From NCBI GenBank assembly GCA_020073385.1, contig JAIQFH010000008.1:1-64000 (forward strand): DNA of 64,000 nt, written 5' to 3'. The notes below the pieces were generated by a model. It had not been told where the DNA came from and ran no database searches. It was given only the letters and a program-made list of their open reading frames with translations. The stretch is from Terriglobia bacterium (GTDB lineage: Bacteria; Acidobacteriota; Terriglobia; Terriglobales; Acidobacteriaceae). Below are positions 39,829 to 61,175 of this stretch, one piece after another. Numbering within the stretch: position 1 is the first letter of the stretch; each line of letters opens with the position of its first letter. The position numbers were made by a program, and so were the translations under genes.

Positions 39829-42594
39829 TTACTGGTACACAAATGCTCCGTCGGTTCCAATCCCGACATTAATTCGCGACATCGCTTCGCCAGCAGCCAT
39901 GCCTGTCAACAACTGTCGAGAGATGTCAGGCAGCAGCGTATTCGTCAGAATGTTGTCGACGTTGCGGGCGCCGCTTTCGACCTCGGTGCACCGCTTGGCC
40001 ACTTCGTCGATCAAGGCCGCATCGTAGGTTAGATCGATCTTGTGGTTTTCCTGGATACGCCGCTGAATCTTGCCCAGCTTCAGGCGGATGATTTGCTTCA
40101 TGTTTTCGTCGCGAATCGGCATGTAAGGAATCAGCACCATTCGACCGAGGAAAGCCGGTTTGAAGATTTTGTTCAGCTCCGGTTTGAGCGCTTTTACCAG
40201 ACCGTCTGGACCCGGCATGGTTTCGGGGTCGGCGCACAGTTTGGCCATCGTGTCGGTGCCGGCGTTGGTCGTGAGAATGATAATCGTATTCTTGAAATCG
40301 ATTTCGCGTCCTTCGCCATCTTCCATGTTGCCCTTATCGAACACCTGATAGAAGAGTTCGAGCACGTCGGGATGCGCCTTCTCCACTTCATCGAGCAGGA
40401 CCACCGCGTACGGACGCCGGCGGACAGCCTCGGTAAGCACGCCTCCCTCGCCGTAACCGACATATCCCGGAGGCGAGCCTTTCAAGGTCGACACGGTGTG
40501 CGCTTCCTGGAACTCCGACATATTGATCGTGATCAGGTTTTTTTCGCCGCCATACAAAAGATCGGAGAGAGCCAACGCGGTCTCGGTTTTGCCGACACCG
40601 CTCGGCCCGACCAGCATGAAAACACCGATGGGCTTGTTGGGATCGTCGAGCCGCGCACGCGCCGTCGAAATCCGCTGGCTGATGATTTCGAGCGCATGAG
40701 TCTGTCCAATGACGCGTTGGCCAAGGACTGAGGGCAGAGAAAGGACTGTGGAGATTTCGTCCTTCATCATCTTGCCGACAGGAATTCCGGTCCATCCTGA
40801 GATGACCTCGCCGACCATCTGTGCGTCGAGGGCCACTCGGATCATTGGGGATTCGCCCTGCAGAGCCGCGAGTTCGGACTCCGCTTGCACAAGTTTGGCG
40901 CGCAATTCCGCAGGATCGACGGGCTTGGCAGCTTCCTGCACCGCCGTAGCGGTGGCGGACGCTGTCTCCGTTGCCACTGCGCTTGCGGCTGGAGCAGGCG
41001 GTGCTGCCTCGGCGGCGACCCCAGGAATTTCCGGCGCAGTAATGTTGCCCTTTCCATTCTGCGAGGCAACAGCGCCTTCGATCTGATTGCGAAGATCCCG
41101 GATCGTGGTTACAAGATCCCGTTCTTTCTCGAAACGAGTGCGCAACGTTGAGAGGCGCGATTCAATTTCTGTACTCTTCGTCGCGATCGCTTCTAGCCGC
41201 TCACGATGGTCTGCGCCAGTGGCCGCCTCCCGCTCGAGAATCCTCTTCTGAACGGCAAGATCATCGAGTTGGCGCACGCTGTCTTCGATCGCAGGCGGAG
41301 TTGCACTCTGGCCCAAAGCCAGCCGTGCACACGCGGTGTCGAGTACGCTGACTGCCTTGTCAGGCAGCTGCCGTCCGGCCAAATAGCGATGCGAAAGATG
41401 AACGGCTGCCGTCAGTCCTTCATCCAGAATACGCACCTTGTGATGCTTCTCGAGTGAAGGAACGATCCCGCGCAGCATCGTCATGCACTGCGTCTCGATG
41501 GGCTCTTCCACCTTCACGACCTGGAATCGACGTGCAAGTGCAGGATCTTTTTCAAAATATTTCTTGTACTCCGACCATGTGGTTGCGGCGACCGTGCGCA
41601 GTTCGCCGCGGGCCAGGGCCGGCTTCAACAGGTTTGCAGCATCGCCCTGCCCCGCTTGCCCGCCAGCGCCAATCATGGTGTGGGCTTCGTCGATGAACAG
41701 GATGATCGGAATCGGCGAAGATTTCACTTCCTCAATCAGCCCTTTCAGCCGGTTCTCGAATTCACCTTTGATTCCCGCTCCAGCCTGAAGAAGAGCCAGA
41801 TCGAGTGTGCGCACGATAACGTTGCGCAGCGGTGGAGGCACGTCGCCTTCGGCAACGCGCAGCGCGAATCCTTCCACGACAGCCGTTTTACCGACGCCAG
41901 CCTCGCCCGTCAGGATCGGATTATTCTGGCGGCGCCGCATCAGGATATCGACTACCTGCCGGATCTCGAAATCGCGGCCCAACACGGGATCGATCTTCCC
42001 AGTCTTCGCCTTCTCCGTGAGGTTGATGGTGAACTGGTCGAGATTGGGAGTTTTCCCTCCTGCCTTCGGACCTGCCGATGGCGCACCCGGGGCGGCGGCG
42101 GCAGCAGCAGCGGCGGCCTGCACTTCCTCGCCTGAGTTCGCGACAATCGATGCGAAGTCCTTCTTCAGAGCATCCGGCTGAATCTTCTGGAATTCACGGC
42201 TTATATCGCGCATCAGGCGCACCAATTCTTCATGGGTCGCCAGCGCAAGAATGGTGAATCCGGTGCGAACCTGTCCCGCGTTGTAATCGATCGAGCCGAT
42301 CGTCCATGCCTCGACCAGCATCCGCATAAGCGATGGGCTGATTGCCGGGGTGCGCGCATTCCCAGATTTCAGCTTGTCGAGAGCACGCGCCAATTCGCCG
42401 GAGAATCTCGAGGTGTCGATCTCAAAATGCTTAAAGATGGCGGTGACATCGTTGTCGGTCGAATCGAGGAGCTTGCTCAGATAGTGCTCCACCTCGATGT
42501 CATAATGCGTGCGGGCCAGGCAAAGTCCTGCCGCAGCTTCCAACGCTCCGCGGGTCGAGTCGTTCAGCTTACCGATCAGAGATTTCAGATTCAT
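39829..42594 (-). CDS. clpV: T6SS sheath-recycling ATPase ClpV (TssH)
   Basis: A 921-residue AAA+ ATPase of the Clp/Hsp100 family. An N-domain (residues 1-160, LIGKLNDSTRGALEAAAGLC) is typical of ClpV and binds TssC. The first AAA domain has GEAGVGKTAVVE, the middle coiled coil lies at about 420-540 with an Ala/Pro-rich insertion near 540-575, and the second AAA domain has GPSGVGKTETALAL. It disassembles contracted TssBC sheath for reuse. ATG 42594 (AAAGGGG upstream) is preferred over a start at 42645. It follows tssG by four bases, so it is part of the same operon. Confidence 0.94.
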   Translation of the reverse strand: MNLKSLIGKLNDSTRGALEAAAGLCLARTHYDIEVEHYLSKLLDSTDNDVTAIFKHFEIDTSRFSGELARALDKLKSGNARTPAISPSLMRMLVEAWTIGSIDYNAGQVRTGFTILALATHEELVRLMRDISREFQKIQPDALKKDFASIVANSGEEVQAAAAAAAAAPGAPSAGPKAGGKTPNLDQFTINLTEKAKTGKIDPVLGRDFEIRQVVDILMRRRQNNPILTGEAGVGKTAVVEGFALRVAEGDVPPPLRNVIVRTLDLALLQAGAGIKGEFENRLKGLIEEVKSSPIPIILFIDEAHTMIGAGGQAGQGDAANLLKPALARGELRTVAATTWSEYKKYFEKDPALARRFQVVKVEEPIETQCMTMLRGIVPSLEKHHKVRILDEGLTAAVHLSHRYLAGRQLPDKAVSVLDTACARLALGQSATPPAIEDSVRQLDDLAVQKRILEREAATGADHRERLEAIATKSTEIESRLSTLRTRFEKERDLVTTIRDLRNQIEGAVASQNGKGNITAPEIPGVAAEAAPPAPAASAVATETASATATAVQEAAKPVDPAELRAKLVQAESELAALQGESPMIRVALDAQMVGEVISGWTGIPVGKMMKDEISTVLSLPSVLGQRVIGQTHALEIISQRISTARARLDDPNKPIGVFMLVGPSGVGKTETALALSDLLYGGEKNLITINMSEFQEAHTVSTLKGSPPGYVGYGEGGVLTEAVRRRPYAVVLLDEVEKAHPDVLELFYQVFDKGNMEDGEGREIDFKNTIIILTTNAGTDTMAKLCADPETMPGPDGLVKALKPELNKIFKPAFLGRMVLIPYMPIRDENMKQIIRLKLGKIQRRIQENHKIDLTYDAALIDEVAKRCTEVESGARNVDNILTNTLLPDISRQLLTGMAAGEAMSRINVGIGTDGAFVYQ

Positions 42595-42598
42595 ATCG

Positions 42599-43666
42599 CT
42601 ACCCCTTTGTTGATTCGAGCGCCAGCACCGTGTCACCTGGATCACGTTGGAACGGCGCCGATTTCACCCATGACACCCACCCCAGTTGCGGCCCGGAAAC
42701 GCCAGCCGCGCCCAAGGTGCAAGCCGGAACCTGCTCGCGCTCCAGAATAAGATTTAGTTCAAAATCCCACTCATCGTTGGAAAAGAAACGGACCCAGCTT
42801 TTCAGCGGCTTGAACGACTGTCCATGGGGCAAAAAATCCGCGTAGCGCTCCAGGCTCAGCGGACCGAGCACGATCCGCACGCGAGACTGCTGGTTCCACA
42901 TCTCATCTCCAACCACGGCTCCAAACCCGAGTTCGCCGCTGTCAGTGTTCTCTTCCGCCAATCGACATTGCGTTTCACGATCGAGGCGATACCACCCACC
43001 CGAGAACTGCTCAATCGCCACCGGAACGTCGAAGTAATCCGACAGAATCTGCTGCAAAGCCTGGGCCGATCGGGGCCGCTGCCCCAACAGGCCGGCGTAG
43101 TAAACCAGCAACTCGTCAGACACGGTCTGCCGGTCGCGCATGCCGTCGGTGCCGAGCCCGAGCAGGCTCAGCAGTTGCCGGGAAAATCGATCGCGCTCGC
43201 CGCGCTCACAGGCCACATCAATCCGGTACTTCCGCCAGGCGCGATAGAAGAGCGAAATGATTCGGTGATTAAAAATGTCGAGAAAATCGCGCAGCGATGT
43301 GTCGCCTTCGCGCTGTCTCTCGATGATGAGCGACGTAAAAGGGTTGGGGAGAACACCCTCCGGCCCAGTCAGGCCCATGAAATTGACGAGCATTCGTACC
43401 GGCCCATCCTCGGGCCACTCTGCTTCCTGAATCTGGCTAGCGGGGAACGCCAGGGAAGGATGCGCGCGGAAATGCGCAACCTCGGCCTGCGGCTGGACGA
43501 ATTGCCCGACCGACTTCCTCTCCGGACTAAACCTCTCAAGCAGGCGAACTGCCTGAAAGAAATCGAAGGTATACGGCTCGCGATGGAGCTTCTCTTCGAT
43601 TTCGCTACCCGGCTGATTCCCGGATTTCGTCAGATCAGGATTGACTGTCCCGCTCTCGGTGTCCAC
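42599..43666 (-). CDS. tssG: T6SS baseplate subunit TssG
   Basis: A 355-residue TssG/ImpH-family protein. The segment YTFDFFQAVRLLER near residue 33, FRAHPSLAFPASQI near 71 and LVNFMGLTGPEGVLP near 92 are the family hallmarks. TssG binds TssF in a 1:2 wedge of the baseplate. The GTG start overlaps tssF by 37 bases, which implies coupled translation and equal supply. Length is within the normal range. The C-terminal end is four bases from clpV. Confidence 0.93.
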   Translation of the reverse strand: MDTESGTVNPDLTKSGNQPGSEIEEKLHREPYTFDFFQAVRLLERFSPERKSVGQFVQPQAEVAHFRAHPSLAFPASQIQEAEWPEDGPVRMLVNFMGLTGPEGVLPNPFTSLIIERQREGDTSLRDFLDIFNHRIISLFYRAWRKYRIDVACERGERDRFSRQLLSLLGLGTDGMRDRQTVSDELLVYYAGLLGQRPRSAQALQQILSDYFDVPVAIEQFSGGWYRLDRETQCRLAEENTDSGELGFGAVVGDEMWNQQSRVRIVLGPLSLERYADFLPHGQSFKPLKSWVRFFSNDEWDFELNLILEREQVPACTLGAAGVSGPQLGWVSWVKSAPFQRDPGDTVLALESTKG

Positions 43667-45489
43667 TCCTCCAGCGCCTCCCTTCGCTGACGGCTGCGAG
43701 CGACCAACTGCGTAAAACTGTTCATCGAGGTGTAGAGGCCAAAAAACTTCTCCAGCACGCTCGCAAACAAATACGCGCCACTGCCGCTGAACTGCTCTTC
43801 GTCGAACTCGATTTCAACGCGCGTGCCTCGCGCAAAACCCACCCCATGCTCGGAAGCGACCCGCGTGAAATGCCTCCGCGAACTCACCGAAGTGATCCCT
43901 GTGATCTGCTTCTTGATGTCAGCGGAATCTGAAAAATCGTAGAGTTCGAGTATCTTCTGCAGCGCTTCCTTGCCATCGTCGACGATCGAGAGGTAGTTCA
44001 GGGAAAGGTGCGAAATCAGAGACCACAAGGTCTTGCCATCCAGTGGCGGGCGCAGGGTGCGCGTCGGCTTGTGTAACGCGACAATCCGCTTGATCGCTGC
44101 GCCGCCTGTCATTTCGAAGTCTCCGGCTTCACTGCCGAAAGGCAGACGAGCCACCAGATCGCGATTCGTGCACGTGCAACGTACTGTGACGGCGTCGTAG
44201 TCCAACTCCATGGGACGAACTGAAATATCGACCAGCGAAAGGAACACGTCGGTGCCCTCATCGCCCTTCCGATTGGAAACCGAGCGCGTGATGTACCAAT
44301 ATGCGGGGCTGGTTCCCTGCACCGCATGACGCTCTGAGTAGAGCGGATGATAGGTCACCGTTTGATGAGTCTCGGCGTCGGTACTGACCACCTCGTCCAC
44401 CGAGTAAATCTCCATGGTTTGACGGCGCCGCGCGTCGGGGACGATTGGATATTGGTAGCGAGTCTGATCAACAAGGATGGGCTCGGCAACCTGGGAGAAC
44501 AAATTGATGATGGGTGCGCACCCCAGGCGCAGCGTCCGGTCGTTGACAGCAACTTCCAGGCGTTGATGACGTCCGTCTTGCTCGAAGGGAGAAATCATGA
44601 ACAGCAACTCGGCCTTCGAGGTGAAGCCTGCTTGCTGCAACTGAGAGAGCCCCTTCAGACTCATGAAAAAGAATTTCTCAGGGAACGCAAAGTACTCCTG
44701 CAGCAAGCGGTATCCCATGAACGATCGCCGGGGATACGGCAAGACGTCCTCGTTCTCCCCGAATCCCATCGGCTGAAGATTGCGCGCGGAAATTTCTCGC
44801 ACCGGAGCTTTCGGCTTGGCGGGATCACGCAGCAGAATGCGCACGCAGTTCCGGCATAGCAGCTCGTAAATTGCGTGGACGACCGAACTCTCACCATTCA
44901 GATAGAAGGAAAGCGTTTCGAGGTCCAACTTCTCAAACGAAACGTCGGGAAAACATTCCAGTTCAACTCGCAGGACGGCGGCTTCAGAAGCACGCAGGGC
45001 TGGCCGGATGCGGTCTGGCGTCATCCACTGTGCTTGCGAAACCTTGAAAGGCCACAGGGTTGTGTCGTAGGAGGTCCGGAACTTGCACGGTACTCCTTCG
45101 ACCGGCCGCGAATAAAGAACCGTTCCCTTTGGAATCTTCAGGGCGCTCGTCAGCTTGCCGCTTTCCGGGTCGCTATGAAATTGGGCCACTGTCATCGACG
45201 GCACCGGACGTAGATAGTGCGGGTAGAGGATGTTCAGCAACGCTTCGGTGATCAGCGGAAAGTCGTCGTCGATGCGCAAATGAACGCGGGCAGCGAGCAG
45301 CGCAAACGCCTCCAACATGCGCTCGACGTGAGGATCTTCGCAGCGATCTGATTCGAGCAGCAAACGCGAAGCGATCTTGGGGTACTTATCGGCGAACTCA
45401 GCCCCAACCTGACGCAGGAAGGTGAGCTCACTCTCGTAGTACTCTCTCAGCTCATTGCGCAAGATCGGCTCCCTTGATCTCGTACTCAC
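43630..45489 (-). CDS. tssF: T6SS baseplate subunit TssF
   Basis: A 619-residue TssF/ImpG-family protein. The N-terminal ELREYYESELTFLRQVGAEF and DPHVERMLEAFALLAARVHL are diagnostic. Middle segments such as FPEKFFFMSLKGLSQL also fit. TssF, with TssG and TssE, makes the wedge that surrounds VgrG. The best-fitting upstream start is GTG 45489, within the 3' end of tssE (38-base overlap). A downstream TTG (ILRNELREYY) is an alternative start. Confidence 0.94.
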   Translation of the reverse strand: MSTRSREPILRNELREYYESELTFLRQVGAEFADKYPKIASRLLLESDRCEDPHVERMLEAFALLAARVHLRIDDDFPLITEALLNILYPHYLRPVPSMTVAQFHSDPESGKLTSALKIPKGTVLYSRPVEGVPCKFRTSYDTTLWPFKVSQAQWMTPDRIRPALRASEAAVLRVELECFPDVSFEKLDLETLSFYLNGESSVVHAIYELLCRNCVRILLRDPAKPKAPVREISARNLQPMGFGENEDVLPYPRRSFMGYRLLQEYFAFPEKFFFMSLKGLSQLQQAGFTSKAELLFMISPFEQDGRHQRLEVAVNDRTLRLGCAPIINLFSQVAEPILVDQTRYQYPIVPDARRRQTMEIYSVDEVVSTDAETHQTVTYHPLYSERHAVQGTSPAYWYITRSVSNRKGDEGTDVFLSLVDISVRPMELDYDAVTVRCTCTNRDLVARLPFGSEAGDFEMTGGAAIKRIVALHKPTRTLRPPLDGKTLWSLISHLSLNYLSIVDDGKEALQKILELYDFSDSADIKKQITGITSVSSRRHFTRVASEHGVGFARGTRVEIEFDEEQFSGSGAYLFASVLEKFFGLYTSMNSFTQLVARSRQRREALEEWTPRAGQSILI

Positions 45490-45949
45490 CTTTGCCTAGC
45501 TCGAGCACCGTGTCGAAGCGCACCGGTTCCGGGGCAGGATCCATGCAGAGCAATCCTTCAATCACGAATTTCAGCGTCCGATAGCTGCCTTCCACGGGTT
45601 CCATGCGCACACGCGCGCGCTTGAGCCGGGGCTCAAAGGTCGCAATTGCGGCCTCCATGTCGCGAACCAGATCAGCGTGATCACGGGTTGACAGCACGGA
45701 CTTCGAAGACACGTCCGCGAAACCATAGTGATAGACGGAACGGTTAGTCTCGCGAGCAGAATCGGGAGCCAGATCGATGGTTCGCCTGGTATTGAGCAGC
45801 CATTCCAGATCACGCTTCAGCGCCGATTTCAGCTCACGAAGCGATTGCGCGCGCGACAGAGGAATCTCCGAGCGCGTCTTTGGATCGCGATCGATCAGGC
45901 GATCGAGCACGGAGAGGGTGACGGGGCCGGTAGCATCTCGTCTGGGCAT
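45452..45949 (-). CDS. tssE: T6SS baseplate subunit TssE (gp25-like)
   Basis: A 165-residue gp25/lysozyme-like baseplate protein. SVLDRLIDRD near the N-terminus, LKRDLEWLLNTRR near residue 47 and SVYHYGFADVSS near 72 are the family pattern; the Glu-Trp-Leu-Leu-Asn-Thr-Arg core typical of TssE is complete. It starts the sheath at the baseplate. It follows tssA by three bases and overlaps tssF, so the order A-E-F-G-clpV forms one continuous block. Confidence 0.93.
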   Translation of the reverse strand: MPRRDATGPVTLSVLDRLIDRDPKTRSEIPLSRAQSLRELKSALKRDLEWLLNTRRTIDLAPDSARETNRSVYHYGFADVSSKSVLSTRDHADLVRDMEAAIATFEPRLKRARVRMEPVEGSYRTLKFVIEGLLCMDPAPEPVRFDTVLELGKGEYEIKGADLAQ

Positions 45950-45952
45950 GCC

Positions 45953-47764
45953 TTATTTTGCGTCTCCCAGCGCTTGTGCCGGATCGAGCCGGCAGATCCT
46001 CTCGAAAATCTTTTGTTGCGCGGCCTTGTCCGCCTGGATCTTGACGCTCATCTTCATCAGGGTCGCCAAGGCACTGGCTACCAGGCCGGGATCTTCCCAT
46101 TCGTCCAGTTTGTGATTTTCGATGGCCGCCGCGAGATCGTCGAGAATGGGTTGCGCCACGTTAGCCTTATTCGTGCTGGCGCAGATCTCGACCAGTTGCA
46201 ACCGCCGGCGGAAGCGCTCGCGGCCGGAACGTTTGCGGGCAATGTCCTGCTGCAGAATCTCGAACGCCTTCCGTTCCTTGCCTTCGCGCAGGGCCTGTAG
46301 CGCAGAAACATAAGCATCGGTAGGCTGGCCCGGCCATCCGGAGCCCAGACCGTTCGACGAGGCGGCGCGCGCGGACCCATCCGCCGTCGGTGTTGCTGCG
46401 GCAGGTGCCTGGCTCAACGTCACCAGCCAGGCGCGGGTCTCCGCATTCGCTGCCGGAGTTTCATCCATCAGGGTGGCATCCAGCAACTGCGGAATGTCGG
46501 TGACCAACGCTTTCAATTCCGAGCGGATGGCACGCGCGATAGCTTCATAACCGCTGCCCAGCGCTTCGCATGCCTCGACCACAAAGCGCTGCATATCCAG
46601 CCAAGCTCTTCCGCAGGGAAGAGCCATGGCACTTTCTGCCGCGTCCAGCAACTCTTCGTACTTCTTGTCCAGAAACAACTTTTTTAAATGCCGGCGTAAC
46701 TCGGTGGGGGGTGCTTCAAGCTTCGTAGGATCCGCCAGTTCGATCGCGGCTCGCAGTTCCCCCCATCGCAAACCCCGCAACATGAGATAGGAGGCCGGGC
46801 TTTGCGGTTCACGACGCCGCAAAAAGGCTGCTGCCTCCGCCACTTTCTTGATCGCATCGACGCGGTCGGCAGGCTCCGAAGAGCCATCGAGAGAGATCAT
46901 CACACCGGCACGAACCGCACTCGCAGCCGTCCCGGCAGTTTCGCCCTCGGCGCCGGGCGCGCCCTCTGCGACAGGAACCACTTCCACGGGATCGGGTTCC
47001 TTCTCGCGCTTCTTCTGCAGGAAACCGTGAATCAGATGCCGGCTCGCCTCCAGACCGGACTGCAGGGGACCAAACGCCGGCCCTTCGTCGCCAAATTTCT
47101 CATCACAACTTTTCTTCAGGCGAGCCAGGTTTTCCAGGGACGCATCCAAATCCTTCTCAGCCTGCGCGTAGAACTTCTTCGGAGTCTCTTCAAATGCCTT
47201 GTCGAAAAGTTCCGGAGTAAGTTTTCCCTCCTTCACGAGCTGGGCGCGCTTTTTCTTTGCGTCGTCGTTCTTGGCCTGGTCTTCATAGCCGACATCACGG
47301 GACTGCTTGTGATCCAGCATGCCGTACTTGGCCTTCTCGACCACAGGTACCAGCTTGAGCGGAATGTCGAGCTTGACTCCGATGAAACCGAGAGGAGCGC
47401 CACGCGATTCCGCGTCGCCGTCTTCTATCTCGGGGTGGAGCGTGTCCCAAAATTTTTCGACCAGCCCGCAACAAAGCGCCAGACCATCCTTCAACCCGCC
47501 AAAGCCGCGCTGCTTCAGCATCGCCTCCGTGAGCCATGCCGCCAATTGCAGGTCTTTGGTTTTGGTGGTGAGCAGCTCGGTGGTGAGCTTGATTACCTGC
47601 GCGTTGTCAGAGACCTTGCGGTCCTGCTCAGTCATCCCGGGCGGCGGTTGCGCTTCTTCGCGCCGCGCCTCTTTGATTTTGTCGTAGACGGGGTCGTAGC
47701 GGAGATTGGCCCCGCTCGGATTGGGGCCCTCGATGGGATTCAGCAGATCGTCAGGAAAGGGCAT
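45953..47764 (-). CDS. tssA: T6SS protein TssA
   Basis: A 603-residue TssA-family protein. The N-terminal ImpA domain is complete (LLNPIEGPNPSGANLRYDPVY, DWLTEA-type AAWLTEAMLKQRGF). A helical middle domain (about residues 300-430) and an Ala/Ser-rich linker are followed by the ImpA-like/VasJ C-terminal helices (QALREGKERKAFEIL). TssA guides tube and sheath assembly, either as a cap or at the baseplate depending on its C-terminal class, which cannot be fixed here. ATG 47764 lies six bases after tagJ. Confidence 0.9.
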   Translation of the reverse strand: MPFPDDLLNPIEGPNPSGANLRYDPVYDKIKEARREEAQPPPGMTEQDRKVSDNAQVIKLTTELLTTKTKDLQLAAWLTEAMLKQRGFGGLKDGLALCCGLVEKFWDTLHPEIEDGDAESRGAPLGFIGVKLDIPLKLVPVVEKAKYGMLDHKQSRDVGYEDQAKNDDAKKKRAQLVKEGKLTPELFDKAFEETPKKFYAQAEKDLDASLENLARLKKSCDEKFGDEGPAFGPLQSGLEASRHLIHGFLQKKREKEPDPVEVVPVAEGAPGAEGETAGTAASAVRAGVMISLDGSSEPADRVDAIKKVAEAAAFLRRREPQSPASYLMLRGLRWGELRAAIELADPTKLEAPPTELRRHLKKLFLDKKYEELLDAAESAMALPCGRAWLDMQRFVVEACEALGSGYEAIARAIRSELKALVTDIPQLLDATLMDETPAANAETRAWLVTLSQAPAAATPTADGSARAASSNGLGSGWPGQPTDAYVSALQALREGKERKAFEILQQDIARKRSGRERFRRRLQLVEICASTNKANVAQPILDDLAAAIENHKLDEWEDPGLVASALATLMKMSVKIQADKAAQQKIFERICRLDPAQALGDAK

Positions 47765-47770
47765 GTTCGA

Positions 47771-48502
47771 TCAGGCGGCCACAGAGGCGGGATTGAACTC
47801 GAGTGCCCGCAGTTCAAGGAACGGGATTTCCTCCTCGTCCACCACCCACATCTTCTGGCCATAAGGAACTTGATATTCGCCGCCTTCAGGCTTCTCCCAT
47901 ACCGTCACGCGTCCCAGGCGTACCGCTTCATCCGGATGACGCCACGAAAACGGAGCGAGCACTGGAAGAAGAACTTCCCCAAGCTCGGTACCCTTGAAAG
48001 CAGGCGTGGTGCGCACCGCGGCTGGCGTCCAAATCAGATCTCGGAGTTTTGTCGGCGGCGGGATCTCGATCGAAGCTACGTGCTCCAGCGGCAGCAGCAA
48101 ATAGTTCCCTGCTGCGAACATCTCCAGCTTGGCGCCGGTTCTGGGATCTGCATCGGAAAAATAAGTGAAAGACTTTCCATTCGCCGTTCCGCCTCGGCTC
48201 GGAGAATCATCCTCCTCCGCCGTTTGCGCGCTGGGAAATTCTCCCCTCTCAAACACATCTTGCCGCTGGCGCTCCGCAAACAACGCGCTGCGATAGAGCA
48301 ACACCCCCATCTCGCTCTGCGGCCCGGCTTGGGCGAGGACTTCCAATTGCTTATCGGCGCGCTCATATTCGCCCGCAAAACACAGCAATTCAAACAGGAA
48401 GGTCCGGCGGCGCACGTCAGTAGGATTTTCGCGCAATTCTGCGCCCAGCGCCTTGATGGCGTCGCTCAGCCGGCCTGCCCGGTATAGCTCTTGTGGATTC
48501 AT
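47771..48502 (-). CDS. tagJ: T6SS accessory protein TagJ (ImpE family)
   Basis: A 243-residue ImpE/TagJ-family protein. An N-terminal TPR-like helical part (YRAGRLSDAIKALGAELREN, RTFLFELLCFAGEYERAD) precedes a beta-rich C-terminal domain with the conserved WTPAAVRTTPAFKG-type segment and WEKPEGGEYQVPYGQKMW near the end. TagJ binds ClpV and the sheath protein TssB in some systems. It lies between hcp and tssA, its typical place in subtype i3-like loci. A strong hairpin separates it from hcp. Confidence 0.88.
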   Translation of the reverse strand: MNPQELYRAGRLSDAIKALGAELRENPTDVRRRTFLFELLCFAGEYERADKQLEVLAQAGPQSEMGVLLYRSALFAERQRQDVFERGEFPSAQTAEEDDSPSRGGTANGKSFTYFSDADPRTGAKLEMFAAGNYLLLPLEHVASIEIPPPTKLRDLIWTPAAVRTTPAFKGTELGEVLLPVLAPFSWRHPDEAVRLGRVTVWEKPEGGEYQVPYGQKMWVVDEEEIPFLELRALEFNPASVAA

Positions 48503-48670: not shown

Positions 48671-49156
48671 TTAGCTGGTCGTAGCTGTGGCGATGTTGTA
48701 GGTCGCATTCCCTGCATTCTGCACCGAACCGTCTGCGCTGTTCTGGGTGCTGAACGCGTATTGGATCTGCTCATAGGCGAAGCTCACGCTCTGGGTAGGC
48801 TTGCCCTGCTGGCCGCCGCCCATGCTGTGGCTCGTAATGTAGCAGTTGGTGAAGGTCACCGTTATATAGTCATACGGATTCGCACCGCCGCCGGACTCTT
48901 GCAGCGTGAATACCGCGCTGTCGACGGGCTTGCCGTTGTAGAGCTGGTTTAGAACCTGAGCGCTGGACGCGTCGACCTCGCACGTAAAGCTGAAGTCCGA
49001 GAGCGACACCGTGCCACCCGAAAGACCATTACTGCCGAGGTTCGCCGGGTTCGAGGCACCGAATGAATAGCTCTCACACTCGATGTTTTTTTCCTTTCCC
49101 ACCGTCTTGGATTCGCCATCAATTCCCTTAAGCAAAATATACGCAGCACCTGGCAT
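48671..49156 (-). CDS. hcp: T6SS tube protein Hcp (TssD)
   Basis: A 161-residue Hcp-family protein that stacks as hexamer rings to form the inner tube and can carry small effectors in its lumen. The N-terminus AYILLKGIDGESK, the ECESYSFGASNP segment and YDYITVTFTNCYITSH fit the PF05638 pattern. The C-terminus is Ala/Thr/Asn-rich and ends without extension domain. ATG 49156 has a perfect GAGGAGG upstream, expected for a highly made protein. It lies 79 bases after tssC and ahead of a strong hairpin. Confidence 0.92.
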   Translation of the reverse strand: MPGAAYILLKGIDGESKTVGKEKNIECESYSFGASNPANLGSNGLSGGTVSLSDFSFTCEVDASSAQVLNQLYNGKPVDSAVFTLQESGGGANPYDYITVTFTNCYITSHSMGGGQQGKPTQSVSFAYEQIQYAFSTQNSADGSVQNAGNATYNIATATTS

Positions 49157-49235: not shown

Positions 49236-50720
49236 TCACTTGGCAGCAGCCGGCAGTTCCGCCACCAGTCGCAGCGATACATTCAGTTCATCAAGCTGGA
49301 AGTGTGGCCGCAGATACGCGATCGCGCGGTACACTCCGGGCTTGCCTTTTACTTCTTCCACATCGATACGTGCTTCTCTCAGGGGGAACTTCGCCTTGGT
49401 TGCCTGGTTGGCCTTGTCGTCCTGCGTCACATACTGGCCGATCCAGCGGTTCAGATAGCGCCAGCAGTCGTCGCGCGACATGAAGCCGCCGATTTTGTCG
49501 CGCATCATCGACTTCAGATAGTGCGCGAACCTGCATGTAGCCATCATGTACGGCAGTTGCGCCGAAATGCGGGCATTCGCCGTCGCCGAATCGGAATCGT
49601 ACAGCTTCGGCTTGTTGCACGACTGAATGCTGAAGAACGCAGCCTTATCGGTACCCTTGCAGTGAACCAGCGGCACCAGACCCTGATCCGCCAGTTCCTT
49701 CTCGCGACGATCAGTGATCGCGATTTCTGTCGGGCACTTCAGAGCGACGTCGCCCTCGTCCGTGCGGAAGGTGTGAGACGGCATCCCGTCGACCAGACCA
49801 CCGCCCTCCACGCCGCGAATCGCCACGCACCAGCCGTAGGTGGCAAACGCCTGGGTCATCTTTGACGCGAGCGCGTAGGCAGCGTTACCCCATAGATACT
49901 TGGAGTGATCGGTGCCGTCCACGCCCTCTTCGAAGTTGAACCCCTCGACCGGGGAGGTATCGCGACCGTAAGGCAGACGCATGAGAACGCGTGGGCAGGT
50001 CAGCGCGACATATTTGGAGTCATCGCTCTCGCGGAAGCCCTTCCACTTCGCGTACTCGGTGCTATCGAAGATCTTTCCGATGTCTCGCGGCTGATCCAGA
50101 TTCGTGAAGCTTTCCATGTTGAGCAATTCAGACGAGGCAGCCGACAAGAACGGTGCATGCGCGGCCGCGGCGACCTGCGAGACCTTCTCCAGCAGTTCCA
50201 GGTCTTCCGGATGCTTGCTGAATTCGTAATCGCCGACCAGCGCGCCAAACGGTTCACCGCCAAAAAGTCCGTACTCTTCCTCGTAGACTTTCTTGAACAT
50301 CGCACTTTGATCAAACTCAGGTGCGCGCTGTAAGTCGCGCAGAAGATCTTTTTTCGATGCGTTGAGCACACGGATCTTCAGCTGAGTGCCGGTCTCGGAT
50401 TGATCCAGCAGATACTTGAGCCCGCGCCAAGTCCCTTCCAGTTTCTGGAACTGGGCGTTGTGCAGGATTTCATTCAACTGAATCGAGACCAGGTGATCGA
50501 TCTGCGCCACGCGGGCGGAAATCATTTGGTCGGCATCCCGGCCCAGAGCCATCGATCCTTCAAGAACCTGGGCGACAAACTCCTTGACCAGATTCTTGCC
50601 TCTCTCGCGAGCTGCGGGGTCGGCAAAGCGGCCCTGTTCTACGATCTGATCGAGAAGAGTCGATTCTGCCGCCTGTTCTACTACTGCGGAACTACCGGCT
50701 GTTTTCTGGGTCTCAGGCAT
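49236..50720 (-). CDS. tssC: T6SS contractile sheath large subunit TssC
   Basis: A 494-residue TssC/VipB/ImpC protein. Conserved parts include LEGTWRGLKYLLDQSETG near residue 90, EYGLFGGEPFGALVGDYEF near 147, LMRLPYGRDTSPVEGFNFEE near 245, and the C-terminal RFAHYLKSMMRDKIGGFMSR ... LNRWIGQYV region. It pairs with TssB to make the contractile sheath around the Hcp tube. It overlaps tssB by eight bases. Length and motifs are complete, in contrast to the fused paralogue at 51662. Confidence 0.95.
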   Translation of the reverse strand: MPETQKTAGSSAVVEQAAESTLLDQIVEQGRFADPAARERGKNLVKEFVAQVLEGSMALGRDADQMISARVAQIDHLVSIQLNEILHNAQFQKLEGTWRGLKYLLDQSETGTQLKIRVLNASKKDLLRDLQRAPEFDQSAMFKKVYEEEYGLFGGEPFGALVGDYEFSKHPEDLELLEKVSQVAAAAHAPFLSAASSELLNMESFTNLDQPRDIGKIFDSTEYAKWKGFRESDDSKYVALTCPRVLMRLPYGRDTSPVEGFNFEEGVDGTDHSKYLWGNAAYALASKMTQAFATYGWCVAIRGVEGGGLVDGMPSHTFRTDEGDVALKCPTEIAITDRREKELADQGLVPLVHCKGTDKAAFFSIQSCNKPKLYDSDSATANARISAQLPYMMATCRFAHYLKSMMRDKIGGFMSRDDCWRYLNRWIGQYVTQDDKANQATKAKFPLREARIDVEEVKGKPGVYRAIAYLRPHFQLDELNVSLRLVAELPAAAK

Positions 50721-51234
50721 TGGGTTCCCCCTTCGGGCCGACTTCGGCCTTCAGCTTATCGAGTTTGTCGGTCTTGCTCACGGCGTCGAGCAGCGCTTCG
50801 TCGAGCTTCTCGTTGGTCTGCAGCGTGCCCTTCAGGTCATTGAGGCGGGTGCGCAAATCGAGCAACTCTTTCAGCGGCTTTACTTGACGAGCCACCTGCT
50901 CGGGTTCGAAATCTTCCAGGCTCTTGAATTTCAAGTCCACTTTGATTTGTCCTGCGTTGGAGTCCTCACTGAGCTTGTTTTCCACCGCGAAGGAGAGGTG
51001 CGGCTTCATGCTTTCGAGAACGGAATCGAAGTTGTCGGGCGTGACCTCGACAAAGCGCCGTTCTTTGAGTTTCGGCAGAGGTTGTTCCGGTTGGCCGGTA
51101 AAGTCGCCCAGAACACCCACTACGAACGGCAGTTCCTTAATTTCGATTGCGCCGCCGGTCTCTACGTCGTAGGTGATCTGAACGCGGGGCGGACGCACGC
51201 GGTCCAATTTATGCTGAGTGCTCGGTTTTGCCAT
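50713..51234 (-). CDS. tssB: T6SS contractile sheath small subunit TssB
   Basis: A 173-residue TssB/VipA/ImpB protein. The hallmarks are RVQITYDVETGGAIEIKELP, FVVGVLGDFTGQ near residue 37, RRFVEVTPDNFDSVLESMKP near 61, and SLEDFEPEQVARQV near 110. The C-terminal helix (LNEALLDAVSKTDKL-like) interlocks with neighbouring TssC. It is the first gene of the tssBC-hcp-tagJ-AEFG-clpV run; the 427 bases upstream hold three inverted repeats and probably its promoter. Confidence 0.95.
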   Translation of the reverse strand: MAKPSTQHKLDRVRPPRVQITYDVETGGAIEIKELPFVVGVLGDFTGQPEQPLPKLKERRFVEVTPDNFDSVLESMKPHLSFAVENKLSEDSNAGQIKVDLKFKSLEDFEPEQVARQVKPLKELLDLRTRLNDLKGTLQTNEKLDEALLDAVSKTDKLDKLKAEVGPKGEPNA

Positions 51235-51661: not shown

Positions 51662-53188
51662 TTAAGCTTGCCAGCGCCCTGCCAACGGCCTCTGCGGATC
51701 GGCAATCGACTGAAACCTCCCTACCCGCACCGAGTCCCGGCCCTTATAAGAAACCAGCGGAATCAGTCCCCGATCGAGAATGCGTTCGACCGCTTCCTCG
51801 GTTAGGAGAACCTCAGCACAAGGCTTTGACTGCGGGTCGCCATCAGCCCGATATGTATGGAGAGGCAAGTTCTCGACTTGAGAGACTATGCCCGGCCGCA
51901 TCTCCCATCCTGCCTCACTGAAAGATTGCCCCAGCAACAGGGCCACAGCAAATGCCGGATTGCCCCACAGATACCCGCCGTGGGATGGGGATCCGGGAAG
52001 CTCCTCGAAGTCGAAAGACTCTAGCGGTGAGGTTTCCCGTCCATACGGCAGGCGCAGCAAGAATCGCGGCATTGCCAATGCCACAGACGCGGATTCGGGC
52101 CGCAAACGAACCTGTTTCCAGGAATCCTGCGCCTTTGACTCGTTCCATTCGCGCGGATGAGGTGCAACCTCGAGGGAAGCACAACCCAGCAATGACGGAT
52201 CTGCCTCCCCAAGGAACGCGGCACCCGCGCGCTGGGCGACCGCACCCAGCTTCGCGAGTAGTTCTGTGTCTTGACCCTCGGATCCAAATTTGAAGTTCCC
52301 CACGACAACCGTCCACGGATCCCCTCCGGGCGTTTCGATGGCTTCCTCCACCAGCAACCGGAAGATTCCCGTCCTGCGAAGATCCTCAGAAGTCTTCAGG
52401 TCTGTCGCCAACTCCTGCTTCGAAATATCGATCAGATAGATCTTCAGTTGCGGTCCGGTTTCGATCTGTCGGACCAGCAGGAACGTGGCACGCCAGATCG
52501 CTTCCAAAGCCTGGAAATCAGGATGGTGCAGAATGACACGCATAGAGTCGCCAATCACCCGGTCAACCGCCGCCACCACATCCGACTGGCGGGGATCAGG
52601 AGCGCTCACGGAATACTTGGCCGCGAGCTGGCGCGCGAATTCATGGACCTCACCCGTTTTGCGGGCAGGCTCCAGCGCGATGCGAGACTCCGTCTGTTCG
52701 ATCATCTCGTCGAGGAGACTGCCAGATGCCAGGCGAACTGGACTGGGCGGCGTTATCCGCGGGCTTTCTTTTTCTTGAGCAGTAGCCGCGGGACGGAGAC
52801 CAAGCTCCTCCGCGACCTTTGCGAATGCCGACGAGTCCTGCACTCGCTCGCGCAGGCCTTTGAGTTTCTGGAAGGCTTCGTTCTCGAAAAGACGGTCGGG
52901 ATGAAAATCGTCCAACTCCGAGAAACGAAACACCAGCGGGGGTTGGCTCTCAGTGGGGAGGTGCAACTCAGGGTGCAATTTCGACAAAACGTCGTCGAAA
53001 TTGTCTGAGTCCACCAGATTCGGACGACGTTCACCAATCGTCTTCGGGTCGATCAGACCTCGATTCGCTCGACCGCTGAAATCGCCAAGTATCGCGATGC
53101 AGAAGGGCGTCTCTGAGGTGGGCCGCGCAAGGGTGCTTTCTTCGCTGGCTCGCAAGTTGACGCCACCAAAATCAAAACGGTTTGACAT
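51662..53188 (-). CDS. TssB-TssC fusion sheath paralogue, C-terminally shortened
   Basis: A 508-residue protein joining both sheath subunits. Residues ~25-110 match TssB (FCIAILGDFSGRANRG, PNLVDSDNFDDVLSKLHPEL, DDFHPDRLF). Residues ~155-508 match TssC (DFQALEAIWRATFLLVRQIETG, FLLRLPYGRETSPLESFDFEE, YLWGNPAFAVALLLG). The last ~130 residues of TssC are absent: the protein ends soon after LIPLVSYKGRDS. It is therefore unlikely to be an ordinary sheath unit. It could cap, seed or regulate the sheath. It lies upstream of tssB behind a 427-base gap, with a good GAGGAG before its ATG. Confidence 0.85.
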   Translation of the reverse strand: MSNRFDFGGVNLRASEESTLARPTSETPFCIAILGDFSGRANRGLIDPKTIGERRPNLVDSDNFDDVLSKLHPELHLPTESQPPLVFRFSELDDFHPDRLFENEAFQKLKGLRERVQDSSAFAKVAEELGLRPAATAQEKESPRITPPSPVRLASGSLLDEMIEQTESRIALEPARKTGEVHEFARQLAAKYSVSAPDPRQSDVVAAVDRVIGDSMRVILHHPDFQALEAIWRATFLLVRQIETGPQLKIYLIDISKQELATDLKTSEDLRRTGIFRLLVEEAIETPGGDPWTVVVGNFKFGSEGQDTELLAKLGAVAQRAGAAFLGEADPSLLGCASLEVAPHPREWNESKAQDSWKQVRLRPESASVALAMPRFLLRLPYGRETSPLESFDFEELPGSPSHGGYLWGNPAFAVALLLGQSFSEAGWEMRPGIVSQVENLPLHTYRADGDPQSKPCAEVLLTEEAVERILDRGLIPLVSYKGRDSVRVGRFQSIADPQRPLAGRWQA

Positions 53189-53243: not shown

Positions 53244-54554
53244 CTATTGATCCCGCTGCTGAGCTACTTGAATCTTACGCAGCCCTTCTCTCGCGTCCGG
53301 ATTATTCGGCTGCAATTGCAGAATGACTCGGTACTCCTGTGCGGCTTTCGCGTAATTCCCATTGCCGGCGTCCGACCTGGCCCACTGCAACAGGCGCGAG
53401 ATGTCTTTCTGGGTCATGCCATCGTACGTACTGTTGCCTTCGAATCCCACAATCGGTGTATCTTCCGGCTTCTTGGGGGGAACATTGTCCTTGGCCGTCT
53501 TGTCGACCGGAGTCTTGTTTGTGCCCGTTTTCTTAGCAACTGGGGGCTGCGGCTTTGCAGGTGGCTGTGTAACCGGTTGCGCCACCGGTGGAGGCTGCGG
53601 AACGCTACTTGTCGGGGTTTCCGTTGTAGGTGTCGCTGCCGGCGTCTCGCTTGCCGGCAATTTAGGCGGAACGTTGGAACTCGACCAGGGGTGAAACAAT
53701 ACAAGCGCTACACCCACCAGCACGATCGCAACCGCCCCGACCACCATTCTCGAACGCGTGATGAAGGCGCTCCGCTCCTCGAACTCTGCCAGTCCGTCCT
53801 CGAAGGTTCCCTCTCGATTTTTGAGTCCATCGGTAACGGGTGGCTTTCTCGAAGCGGTGTCCATTCTCTCTGAAGCGCCGGCGTCCTTGCGAGGCGCATT
53901 CACGATCATGGTCGCCCCAACCGGCGGACCTATCTCCACTGTTGGAGGCGCCACGGCTGCCGAATTCCGCAGGCTCGCCAACTGCTCAGCTGACGCCCAT
54001 ACCAACTCCGCGAGTCCAGCATGTTCGGTTCCGCCCGTGGTGAGCGCGGGCACTGAGCGAAGCTCAATCCCGGGAAGATTCTGGAACCGCCTTGAGACTT
54101 CTTCGGCGAGAATGATTTGCCCTGGCTCGGCCAGCCGTAGCGCACTCTGCGCCATCCCTTGACTGAATCCTTCTGTCACGGGCGGATGGATCAATACCGC
54201 GGCCCCCAGGTAATCCCCCGGTCGGCAGGCGAGAAATTCCAGGATTGCCGTCTGGATACGCTTTGCTGCCACCAGTGCCAGTAGTGAATTGCTGAAATGC
54301 GCGGCCATCGCGGCGGGCGTCTCCCCTGCGGCGCGACCGTGGCTTGCCGCCACCAGGTCGGTAATCATGTACACGAGGACGCTCTCGCTGTTCCAGGTCA
54401 AAGCCGCCGTACCGCCACTGTTGTCTCGACGCCACACTCGAATGGTCAGATCCGCGGCTTCGGAAGCAGCAATCCGACTCCCGGTCGCTGGGCTCTGCTC
54501 GGGGTTCGCGATCTCGAACTCTTTGCTGTCCGTCTTCGGTTCGAAAGGCACCAT
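53244..54554 (-). CDS. Degenerate-cyclase-like / TM / TPR membrane protein
   Basis: A 436-residue protein. The N-terminal ~215 residues have a class III nucleotidyl-cyclase-like pattern (VLVYMITDLVAASHGRAAGE near the N-terminus, and SALRLAEPGQIILAEEVSRR near 160), but no clear metal-binding Asp pair was seen, so it is probably a degenerate sensory or binding domain. One membrane segment follows (MVVGAVAIVLVGVALVLFH). Outside come a Pro/Thr-rich linker and a short TPR-like C-terminus (AKAAQEYRVILQLQPNNPDA). It lies between the TssB-TssC fusion and the divergent TPR/kinase/phosphatase genes. Unknown family; ATG 54554 chosen, an upstream in-frame start at 54635 is possible. Confidence 0.62.
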   Translation of the reverse strand: MVPFEPKTDSKEFEIANPEQSPATGSRIAASEAADLTIRVWRRDNSGGTAALTWNSESVLVYMITDLVAASHGRAAGETPAAMAAHFSNSLLALVAAKRIQTAILEFLACRPGDYLGAAVLIHPPVTEGFSQGMAQSALRLAEPGQIILAEEVSRRFQNLPGIELRSVPALTTGGTEHAGLAELVWASAEQLASLRNSAAVAPPTVEIGPPVGATMIVNAPRKDAGASERMDTASRKPPVTDGLKNREGTFEDGLAEFEERSAFITRSRMVVGAVAIVLVGVALVLFHPWSSSNVPPKLPASETPAATPTTETPTSSVPQPPPVAQPVTQPPAKPQPPVAKKTGTNKTPVDKTAKDNVPPKKPEDTPIVGFEGNSTYDGMTQKDISRLLQWARSDAGNGNYAKAAQEYRVILQLQPNNPDAREGLRKIQVAQQRDQ

Positions 54555-54685
54555 GAGGCTCGGGACTCGGGGGGAAGAGGGATACGTCCGGGACAGTAGG
54601 TTACGCCAAAATGCCACGCGTGGCAAACATTTCACTCGCCGGCTTCATGGCACAGACGTGCCCCTGCTATCCCCCTTGGGAATGC

Positions 54686-57463: not shown

Positions 57464-57589
57464 CGCAGAACTGTTTTGCCCTGTATTATCCTAGTGCTGT
57501 AAATCGGCTGGAGAGCAGTAAGCCAGCCACACAGCATTTGCACTTCTTCCCCGGGGTGCCGCTTCGCCCTGACAAAGCGACTTACATCC

Positions 57590-60217: not shown

Positions 60218-60353
60218 TCAGTATCGGTACAAAATCTACCGCGCGGAGTTAGGCTTGGGGCGCCGTTTTCCACAACAAAGTTTCGGGCCCTTCAATTCTG
60301 TCGTTTCAGGGTTTACCGTGAGAGAGTGATACGTTAGGATTCCCTGACTCAGC

Positions 60354-61175
60354 ATGAGCTACGTAATCCAAGCCGCCGGCATGACTGATATCGGCCTCGT
60401 GCGCAAGAACAACGAGGACAACTTTGGATACGACTTGCGCCAGGGCATCTTCGTCGTCTGCGACGGCATGGGTGGACAGCAGGCTGGTGAACTGGCCAGC
60501 AAGATAGCGGTAGACACGGTCCTGGGTTTTTACCGGGATACTGGCGATACCACGCGCTCTGGAGTGCAGCAATTCGAAGGCGTCTCACAACGCGCCGCTG
60601 ATCTCGCCGGCGCCATTCAACTCGCCAATCAGGCGATTCACGAAGCTGGCGCGAGGGACATCACCATTGCTGGTATGGGCTCAACCATCGTGGCCGTCGC
60701 GGTCGAAGGCAATCTGTTCTCGATAGCCAACGTCGGCGACAGCCGCATCTACCTAATCCGCAAAAGTGAAGTTGTCCAACTGACCCAGGACCATTCTCTG
60801 GTGATGGAGCAGGTCCGCCGCGGCCTGATGACTCTGGAAGAAGCCGAAAATTCAAAGATGCAGAATGTTATCGTGCGCGCCCTCGGGACCGACGACACGG
60901 TCGAACCCGATCTGGCCGACCACGAGTTCAGTCCTGAAGACGTCCTGCTGCTCTGCAGCGACGGTCTTTCACGCTATGTGAAGGAAGACAAGATCGCGGA
61001 GGCCGTAAATCAGGAGTCTCTGGATAAGGCCTGCAGCGATTTGATTGAAGCCGCTAAGGCGGGCAGCAGCGATGACAACATCACTTGCCTCTTGATTCGA
61101 GCCACCCCACCGTCCTGGAAAGATCGATTCTTCGGCCGGCTGTCGGCTCAAGGGGGGCAGAAAAGCTCCACCTGA
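60354..61175 (+). CDS. pppA: PP2C-type Ser/Thr phosphatase (PppA-like)
   Basis: A 273-residue PPM/PP2C phosphatase. All metal-binding motifs are present: LVRKNNEDNFGY near residue 14, VCDGMGGQQAGE near 32, NVGDSRIYLI near 127, LLCSDGLSRYV near 198 and SSDDNITCLL near 240. It reverses kinase phosphorylation in the cytoplasm. Spaced 136 bases after the kinase gene and in the same direction, it is its natural partner. The C-terminal 25 residues are basic. Convergent with tssM. Confidence 0.9.
   Translation: MSYVIQAAGMTDIGLVRKNNEDNFGYDLRQGIFVVCDGMGGQQAGELASKIAVDTVLGFYRDTGDTTRSGVQQFEGVSQRAADLAGAIQLANQAIHEAGARDITIAGMGSTIVAVAVEGNLFSIANVGDSRIYLIRKSEVVQLTQDHSLVMEQVRRGLMTLEEAENSKMQNVIVRALGTDDTVEPDLADHEFSPEDVLLLCSDGLSRYVKEDKIAEAVNQESLDKACSDLIEAAKAGSSDDNITCLLIRATPPSWKDRFFGRLSAQGGQKSST

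Follow-up and report, generated by a model that had tools for sequence, protein, structure and literature searches.

The closest described relatives of the protein reported here belong to the sheath of the type VI secretion system (T6SS), in which TssB/VipA and TssC/VipB form a pair. The sheaths of phages, R-pyocins and extracellular contractile injection systems (eCIS; gp18, AFP and PVC) are single chains, and they keep the C-terminal handshake domain. A partial sheath protomer is also found in TssE, the gp25-like sheath initiator of the baseplate. Agrobacterium and Rhizobium carry a TssC paralogue, ImpD/TssC40, as a second, divergent TssC-type gene in the T6SS cluster; Hcp secretion depends on it, but its loss does not prevent TssB and TssC41 from accumulating (PMC3702570). 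At the interface of ClpV and the sheath stands TagJ/HsiE1, an accessory and non-universal adaptor described in PMC4239648. Here we describe a gene from a Terriglobia bacterium (assembly GCA_020073385.1, contig JAIQFH010000008.1, positions 1 to 64,000, hereafter the window) which lies on the minus strand at 51662..53188 and encodes a conserved headless single-chain sheath protomer, a fusion of TssB-like and TssC-like halves without the handshake domain.

Compared with the TssB/VipA and TssC/VipB pair, the fusion shares the domain order, the fold of the TssC part and the N-terminal TssC helix. It differs in being one chain, in lacking the PF18945 handshake domain and a recognisable TssB donor strand, and in coexisting with the full pair. 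Its sequence identity to the single-chain sheaths of phages, R-pyocins and eCIS is about 8-16%. Where TssE consists of the gp25-like part of a protomer, the fusion holds everything else. ImpD/TssC40 is likewise a second TssC-type gene, but the examined Rhizobium ImpD keeps both VipB domains and has neither the TssB half nor the N-terminal helix, which is the opposite truncation, and assignment of the fusion to ImpD/TssC40 was rejected. TagJ, unlike the fusion, is an unrelated ImpE/TPR (tetratricopeptide repeat) protein; it is encoded beside the fusion in the window (47771..48502, minus strand, PF07024), so the fusion is not simply a TagJ replacement. In a literature search of open PMC papers, we recognised no published description of such a fusion or of a truncated sheath paralogue. 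Homologues carry annotation names such as 'type VI secretion system contractile sheath large subunit' and ImpC.

A sheath protomer without its handshake domain

The gene begins with ATG and encodes 508 residues. Its TssB-like half (residues 21-118, at 52835..53128) matches PF05591 T6SS_VipA over profile positions 20-122 of 155 (E 8.2e-10, 39.1 bits, cut-off 24), and the structure model is confident there, with block means of the predicted local distance difference test (pLDDT) of 91-98 over residues 21-120. A linker of about 80 residues follows, and then the N-terminal (VipB) domain of TssC (residues 203-489, at 51722..52582), which matches PF05943 over positions 2-294 of 301 (E 3.6e-67, 227 bits, cut-off 27) and VipB/TssC in structure, up to chain residue ~397-400. 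The last 19 residues (51665..51721) form a family-specific C-terminus ending LAGRW-QA, ordered in the model, which replaces the gpW/gp25-like domain of TssC; they show no continuation into that domain, and the chain stops where the handshake domain would begin. Pfam gave no match to PF18945 VipB_2 in the window fusion, while in the window TssC both VipB domains are present (residues 69-368 and 379-489).

The NCBIfam equivalogs agree. Against TIGR03355 (TssC) the fusion covers profile positions 3-343 of 473 with 225 bits, below the cut-off of 271.5, so it is not a full TssC and about 130 TssC residues are absent. Against TIGR03358 (TssB) it covers positions 23-124 of 160 with 35 bits, below the cut-off of 97.25, and is not a full TssB. 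The TssB half is indeed trimmed too, since the first ~20 positions of the Pfam profile, the donor-strand region, and the last ~30 are unmatched. These scores place the fusion within the VipA and VipB domain families and outside the TssC/VipB and TssB/VipA equivalogs. The window also encodes a complete tssB (50713..51234) and a complete tssC (49236..50720), both on the same strand, to whose products the fusion has 32% identity over 115 columns and 37% over 357 columns (BLASTP). A VipB search of the window genome matched the fusion and tssC and no other gene. The earlier note, written from the DNA letters alone, had proposed a chain with a TssB domain and the first part of TssC, devoid of the last ~130 residues, which belong to the core domain of known sheaths, and coexisting with complete tssB and tssC, and the domain matches bear this out.

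In the structure model, the TssB-like and TssC-like halves fold together as one chain. A helix at residues 158-166 is predicted inside an otherwise low-confidence linker (135-181), and the N-terminus, which has no Pfam match to the TssB donor strand, is likewise of low confidence. A strand-like N-terminal pattern occurs in 17 of 52 anchor-bearing loci, with a short one in several fusions of helix class A (defined below) and no single conserved motif. An earlier model from 18 close sequences (pLDDT 64.6) was not used.

Conservation of the truncated form

For homologues, 5.8 billion proteins were searched, and the figures rest on the best 120 of 4519; a scan of genome contigs gave 388 relatives, of which the best 80 are the loci considered throughout, so that their phylum counts are not rates. 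Length lies between 500 and 540 residues in 117 of the 120 homologues, and in 115 the motif [LIVMF]x[GAT]xW lies no more than eight residues from the C-terminus. In alignment A1 (18 sequences) conservation reaches the final residues. The C-terminal LxGxW motif is present in 71 of the 77 loci with a complete end, across seven or eight phyla, at most 12 residues before the stop in 56 of them and followed by a tail in 15. Six complete loci lack it (L035, L049, L053, L058, L076 and L083), where chance matches of the pattern elsewhere in the chains of L035 and L049 were not counted as an end motif; L060, L072 and L085 have no complete fusion end. These last three were omitted from alignment A3, together with L020 (a near copy) and the broken or partial L024, L074, L076 and L083.

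We also built a profile of the TssC C-terminal domain from 23 seeds. It matched 68 of 68 TssCs and none of 81 fusion open reading frames (ORFs; the 80 loci and the window, three of them cut by contig ends or breaks), nor did it match the available DNA up to 1.5 kb downstream of these ORFs. The truncation is therefore kept family-wide. The survey asked for by the earlier note thus found the same truncation in several phyla, with the reading frame conserved across the family and no orthologue with an intact TssC C-terminus; the one complete fusion that we met, in an Acidobacteriota genome, belongs to a separate TssC-like lineage (see below).

This conservation bears directly on whether the gene is a decayed or mis-assembled one, a functionless truncated fusion of adjacent tssB and tssC. 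One near relative could be taken that way, as its fusion is split over two frames (L024:199-1700, ORFs of 255 and 272 residues), by sequencing error or as one broken copy. Decay would have to be reconciled, however, with an end point and LxGxW motif shared by most complete loci, with the narrow range of lengths, with the lack of a C-domain remnant in the available downstream DNA, and with identities to the neighbours' products too low for a recent copy. We rejected gene decay and a split gene on the conservation of length, end motif and frame, and regard them as extremely improbable.

Distribution and origin

The loci come from Acidobacteriota, Nitrospirota, Thermodesulfobacteriota, Planctomycetota, Gemmatimonadota, Verrucomicrobiota and Pseudomonadota, and three 'Deltaproteobacteria' metagenome-assembled genomes (MAGs) among them carry a Myxococcota label. 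Many are MAGs, and named strains are present too, such as Methylobacter sp. BlB1, Salipiger, Sulfitobacter and Ruegeria. Within Acidobacteriota, a TssC-type VipB was found in 47 of 297 genomes. A search with the A3 profile, in which at most five candidates were scored per genome, detected the headless fusion, with its two halves in a single open frame, in 19 of the 47 and in none of the 250 TssC-negative genomes; the other 28 TssC-positive genomes have no such fusion. Among the 19, the fusions of G156 and G177 are divergent and those of G168 and G223 matched as two pieces of one frame, and every one of these genomes also gives a strong match to TssC, in frames some 500 residues long. The fusion is a T6SS component, confined to T6SS genomes in this phylum. 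The TssC C-domain is present in 72 of the 80 genomes with a locus (46/50 and 26/30), the eight misses all being draft MAGs, and ClpV is above the cut-off in 68, with at least five of the other twelve having a partial match, possibly to ClpV.

Gene context is variable, and 45 of the 80 loci have a T6SS core gene in the available flank (TssH in 33, VgrG in 30, TagJ in 12; flank lengths differ). Two orders recur, fusion-tssB-tssC-hcp in Acidobacteria, and tssH, zero to two genes, fusion and vgrG in desulfobacteria and roseobacters. Directly upstream, the genes are of many kinds, and the idea of one conserved upstream partner was not supported. Two desulfobacterial genes adjoining the fusion upstream (L012:8884-9909 and L034:9273-9875) resemble cysteine peptidases by eye and are possible effectors.

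In a tree of the shared TssC region, a quick one with long branches, a single branch divides 73 fusions from 68 TssCs (SH-like approximate likelihood ratio test, SH-aLRT, 100), so the fusion probably separated from TssC once. It has evolved faster than the TssC of the same genome, with lower identity in 2069 of 2080 genome pairs, values that are correlated (r 0.67). Of the TssC positions in the shared part with at least 90% conservation, the fusions retain 29 and differ at 59, a tally of sequence positions that leaves out those of intermediate conservation and one misaligned tryptophan; PCxE replaces the CPTE of TssC in most fusions. Phage records (50,697) gave six partial matches with a best coverage of 68%, and a scan of IMG/VR gave no confirmed relative. 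That the fusion is a phage protein is not supported by these scans.

A linker helix matched to the ClpV of its own system

T6SSs have been divided by the N-terminal helix of TssC (PMC4239648): in V. cholerae an LLDEII motif binds in the ClpV N-domain groove, and in the other class the motif is EFASLL, as in P. aeruginosa HsiC1, and the ClpV groove has Arg6 and Asp87 where the first class has aliphatic residues. The fusion linker contains a helix, LASGSLLDEMIEQTESR (residues 153-169, at 52682..52732), which is conserved in alignments A1 and A3 and has an LLDEII-type motif as set out in PMC4239648. Judged by its sequence, it is the ClpV-recognition helix of TssC, retained in a class-specific form.

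We compared the helices of 72 fusions with the TssC N-termini read in the same genomes. The type agrees in 51 of 51 classifiable pairs, none being crossed: 30 LLDxI-type fusions accompany LLDxI-type TssCs (class A; L041 and L059 by a looser pattern only), and 21 [F/I]xxL[L/I]G-type fusions accompany EFxxLL-type TssCs (class B). Class-A helices never match the B pattern, nor class-B helices the A pattern. ClpV follows suit. Among 25 ClpVs from the window and the loci, residue 6 matches the helix class in 22 of 22 cases: it is Arg in all 13 class-B systems and Leu in all nine of class A, and the three unclassed cases comprise two Arg and one Leu; column 87 is Asp in the 13 class-B ClpVs and Ala (7) or Ser (2) in the nine of class A. 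As the fusions appear to form a single family, the helix has seemingly evolved in parallel with the sheath and the ClpV of the system it belongs to.

Possible roles of the fusion

Without the TssC C-domain and a recognisable TssB donor strand, the fusion is implied to be unable to polymerise normally, and going by these missing parts it presumably does not polymerise. It retains the middle layer of TssB and TssC and the N-terminal TssC helix, and has lost the inner handshake domain that knits subunits together. Such a protein, devoid of lattice contacts, would stay outside the sheath wall, and its exposed helix could dock on the ClpV N-domain as contracted TssC does. It may then compete for idle ClpV, leaving the contracted sheath, with its high avidity, as the only one able to attract ClpV, or act as an escort that would bring ClpV to the sheath. 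We tentatively favour this polymerisation-dead sheath mimic, docking ClpV and tuning sheath recycling, while holding it short of probable. A soluble, ClpV-directed role fits at least as well as a role in the sheath, given the class-matched helix, the relaxed TssC positions, the fast evolution and the loci without T6SS neighbours.

Several points weigh against this ClpV-directed role. Docking of the ClpV N-domain by the fusion helix is a prediction, and the same helix could pack on a neighbouring sheath protomer instead. In class B the N-terminus of HsiC1 is not needed for ClpV1 binding, according to PMC4239648. The patterns that define helix classes and tail motifs were drawn up after inspection of the sequences, and 21 of the 72 fusions are uninformative: five class-A and three unclassed fusions accompany a third TssC type (LLDQAI.AT or FLEQAI.AT), five class-A fusions an unclassed TssC, and the unclassed L054 a class-A TssC, while four class-A, one class-B and two unclassed fusions have no TssC read. 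Helix class changes three times on the best tree, with one contrast on supported branches, and with one to three independent switches a test of covariation cannot reach significance; co-descent with the T6SS class explains the match of helix and ClpV as well. No T6SS gene was recognised in the available flank of 35 of the 80 loci. ClpV is expected in nearly all T6SSs, and its presence beside the fusion discriminates little.

The earlier note had suggested that the chain may start, end or block the sheath, or form a different minor ring. In line with the first of these, the fusion could alternatively be an end-piece that caps or starts the sheath; docked on TssE or on a terminal TssBC ring, it would halt or nucleate polymerisation as it has no handshake acceptor. 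The attraction of this reading is that TssE is the gp25-like domain alone, so that TssE and the fusion would add up to one whole protomer. The absence of the acceptor domain with the rest of the fold kept is in line with it, as are the short strand-like N-terminus of several class-A fusions and the TssB that is leashed to the fusion in nine of 17 tail-bearing loci, which could enter a ring. Yet the N-terminus is of low confidence in the model, with the pattern in just 17 of 52 anchor-bearing loci, many positions conserved in TssC are relaxed in the fusions (as sequence positions, not coordinates), and 28 of 47 TssC-positive Acidobacteriota genomes do without such a fusion. We place it next after targeting of ClpV, as an unlikely explanation. 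More doubtful still is an assembly factor, a soluble chaperone or inhibitor that would pair with free TssB or TssC and block premature sheath formation. A sheath-like fold without polymerising parts and the T6SS-only distribution in Acidobacteriota would suit it, but the two halves fold together in the model, which should leave no free pairing site, and we consider it improbable.

A form possibly anchored to the sheath in Alphaproteobacteria

Acidic tails with repeated E/D-L-x-x-L-L motifs were observed after the fusion module in L061, which has three ETSELDALLGD-type repeats, in L065 and in the alphaproteobacterial L068-L086. Nine of the 17 tail-bearing loci examined (L003, L071, L075, L077, L078, L079, L082, L084 and L086) encode, in one open frame and in this order, a near-complete TssB, an extended acidic segment, the fusion module and an acidic tail. 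Their hosts are mostly roseobacter relatives, with one Rhizobium and one Roseibium, and the leashed TssB has the N-terminal QKF stretch in all eight whose start was read. The TssB of L080 is degenerate, and that of L004 has an acidic tail and is encoded by a separate gene directly upstream. By the pattern used, 16 of 17 loci have a tail ending in D-x-x-L-A-A-L-L-x-x-L or a close variant of it. [DE][LFI]xxLL motifs, which resemble the class-B TssC helix, occur 29 times in the tails, compared with 0.9 expected from shuffled tails, the pattern having been chosen after inspection and the sequences being related.

A TssB anchored in this way would presumably associate with TssC and become part of the sheath, and this form suggests action there. 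With its full TssB, acidic leash, module and E/D-L-x-x-L-L motifs, it may be the sheath-anchored version of the fusion, which would favour the escort mode in these bacteria. In its broadest form, our proposal is that the fusion is an ancient, unrecognised T6SS accessory, a non-polymerising protomer with a class-specific ClpV tag that would control when and where ClpV dismantles sheaths, and that in roseobacters and their relatives would be a sheath-anchored, multi-motif ClpV tether; we put this forward as a possibility, on balance somewhat doubtful. In few systems is it understood what keeps ClpV off extended sheaths and directs it to those that have contracted. A protomer that naturally has the ClpV helix and no polymerising domain would be a ready-made tool, and possibly a missing regulator of this step. 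T6SSs beyond the well-studied Proteobacteria carry, in the fusion, a part masked by annotation names.

Gene neighbourhood in the window

Downstream of the fusion, a same-strand series comprises the complete tssB (Pfam, NCBIfam), the complete tssC with an LLDQIV N-terminal helix (Pfam, NCBIfam), hcp (48671..49156, Pfam), tagJ/impE, tssA (45953..47764, Pfam, NCBIfam) and tssE (gp25-like, 45452..45949, Pfam, NCBIfam), all on the minus strand. Farther downstream are clpV, vgrG and tssK, and tssM lies on the opposite side; tssF and tssG were identified by similarity to annotated genes of L003. ClpV (tssH, 39829..42645, minus strand, AAA/ClpB-type domains) has Leu at groove residue 6 and belongs to the V. 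cholerae-type class. The window hence combines TagJ with an aliphatic-groove ClpV and an LLDxI-type TssC; such mixed combinations are recorded as exceptions in PMC4239648.

A gene 55 nt upstream of the fusion (53244..54635, minus strand) has no Pfam family except a weak TPR match, and its homologues adjoin the fusion upstream in L008 and L010. By eye, we take its product to have a degenerate class III cyclase-like N-terminus, a membrane segment and C-terminal TPRs. Divergent genes on the plus strand (54770-61175) encode a large protein without a Pfam family above cut-off, a Ser/Thr kinase with TPRs and, by eye, a PPM-type phosphatase, and are likely a T6SS post-translational switch. A scan for promoters and terminators gave no more signals than shuffled sequence explains.

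Other fusions and divergent VipB-type proteins

While checking the Acidobacteriota search, which did not systematically seek complete fusions, we met a TssB-TssC fusion of 531 residues in G119 (L155:422-2017) with PF05591, PF05943 and PF18945 (54 bits, profile 2-97 of 112). Like the headless fusion it has both halves in one chain and comes from the same phylum; unlike it, it retains PF18945 and scores as TssC, with 423 bits against the TssC profile versus 228 against the headless-fusion profile. Besides this chain, G119 encodes a headless fusion (439 bits) and an ordinary TssC. The complete fusion is a separate lineage, and indicates that fused, apparently complete sheath subunits exist. A supposed tssB-tssC fusion in G098 was wrong, as stops separate the two genes.

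G121 (L156, G121:C74) contains tandem, very divergent VipB-type ORFs of 485 and 519 residues with no recognisable C-domain, scoring 101 versus 72 and 46 versus 27 bits with the headless and TssC profiles; they were excluded from the fusion counts. Similar ORFs occur in further Acidobacteriota T6SS genomes (G042:C127, G066:C57, G029:C93 and G190:C60:342451-342933). With those of G121, these divergent ORFs span 485-540 residues and 43-91 bits, and they are perhaps further sheath-derived families. Finally, two TssC C-domain genes lie about 1.6 kb apart in nine genomes (G315, G325, G327, G329, G341, G343, G344, G356 and G358), resembling the rhizobial tssC-impD arrangement, and eight of the nine are all eight of the systems whose TssC is of the third type.
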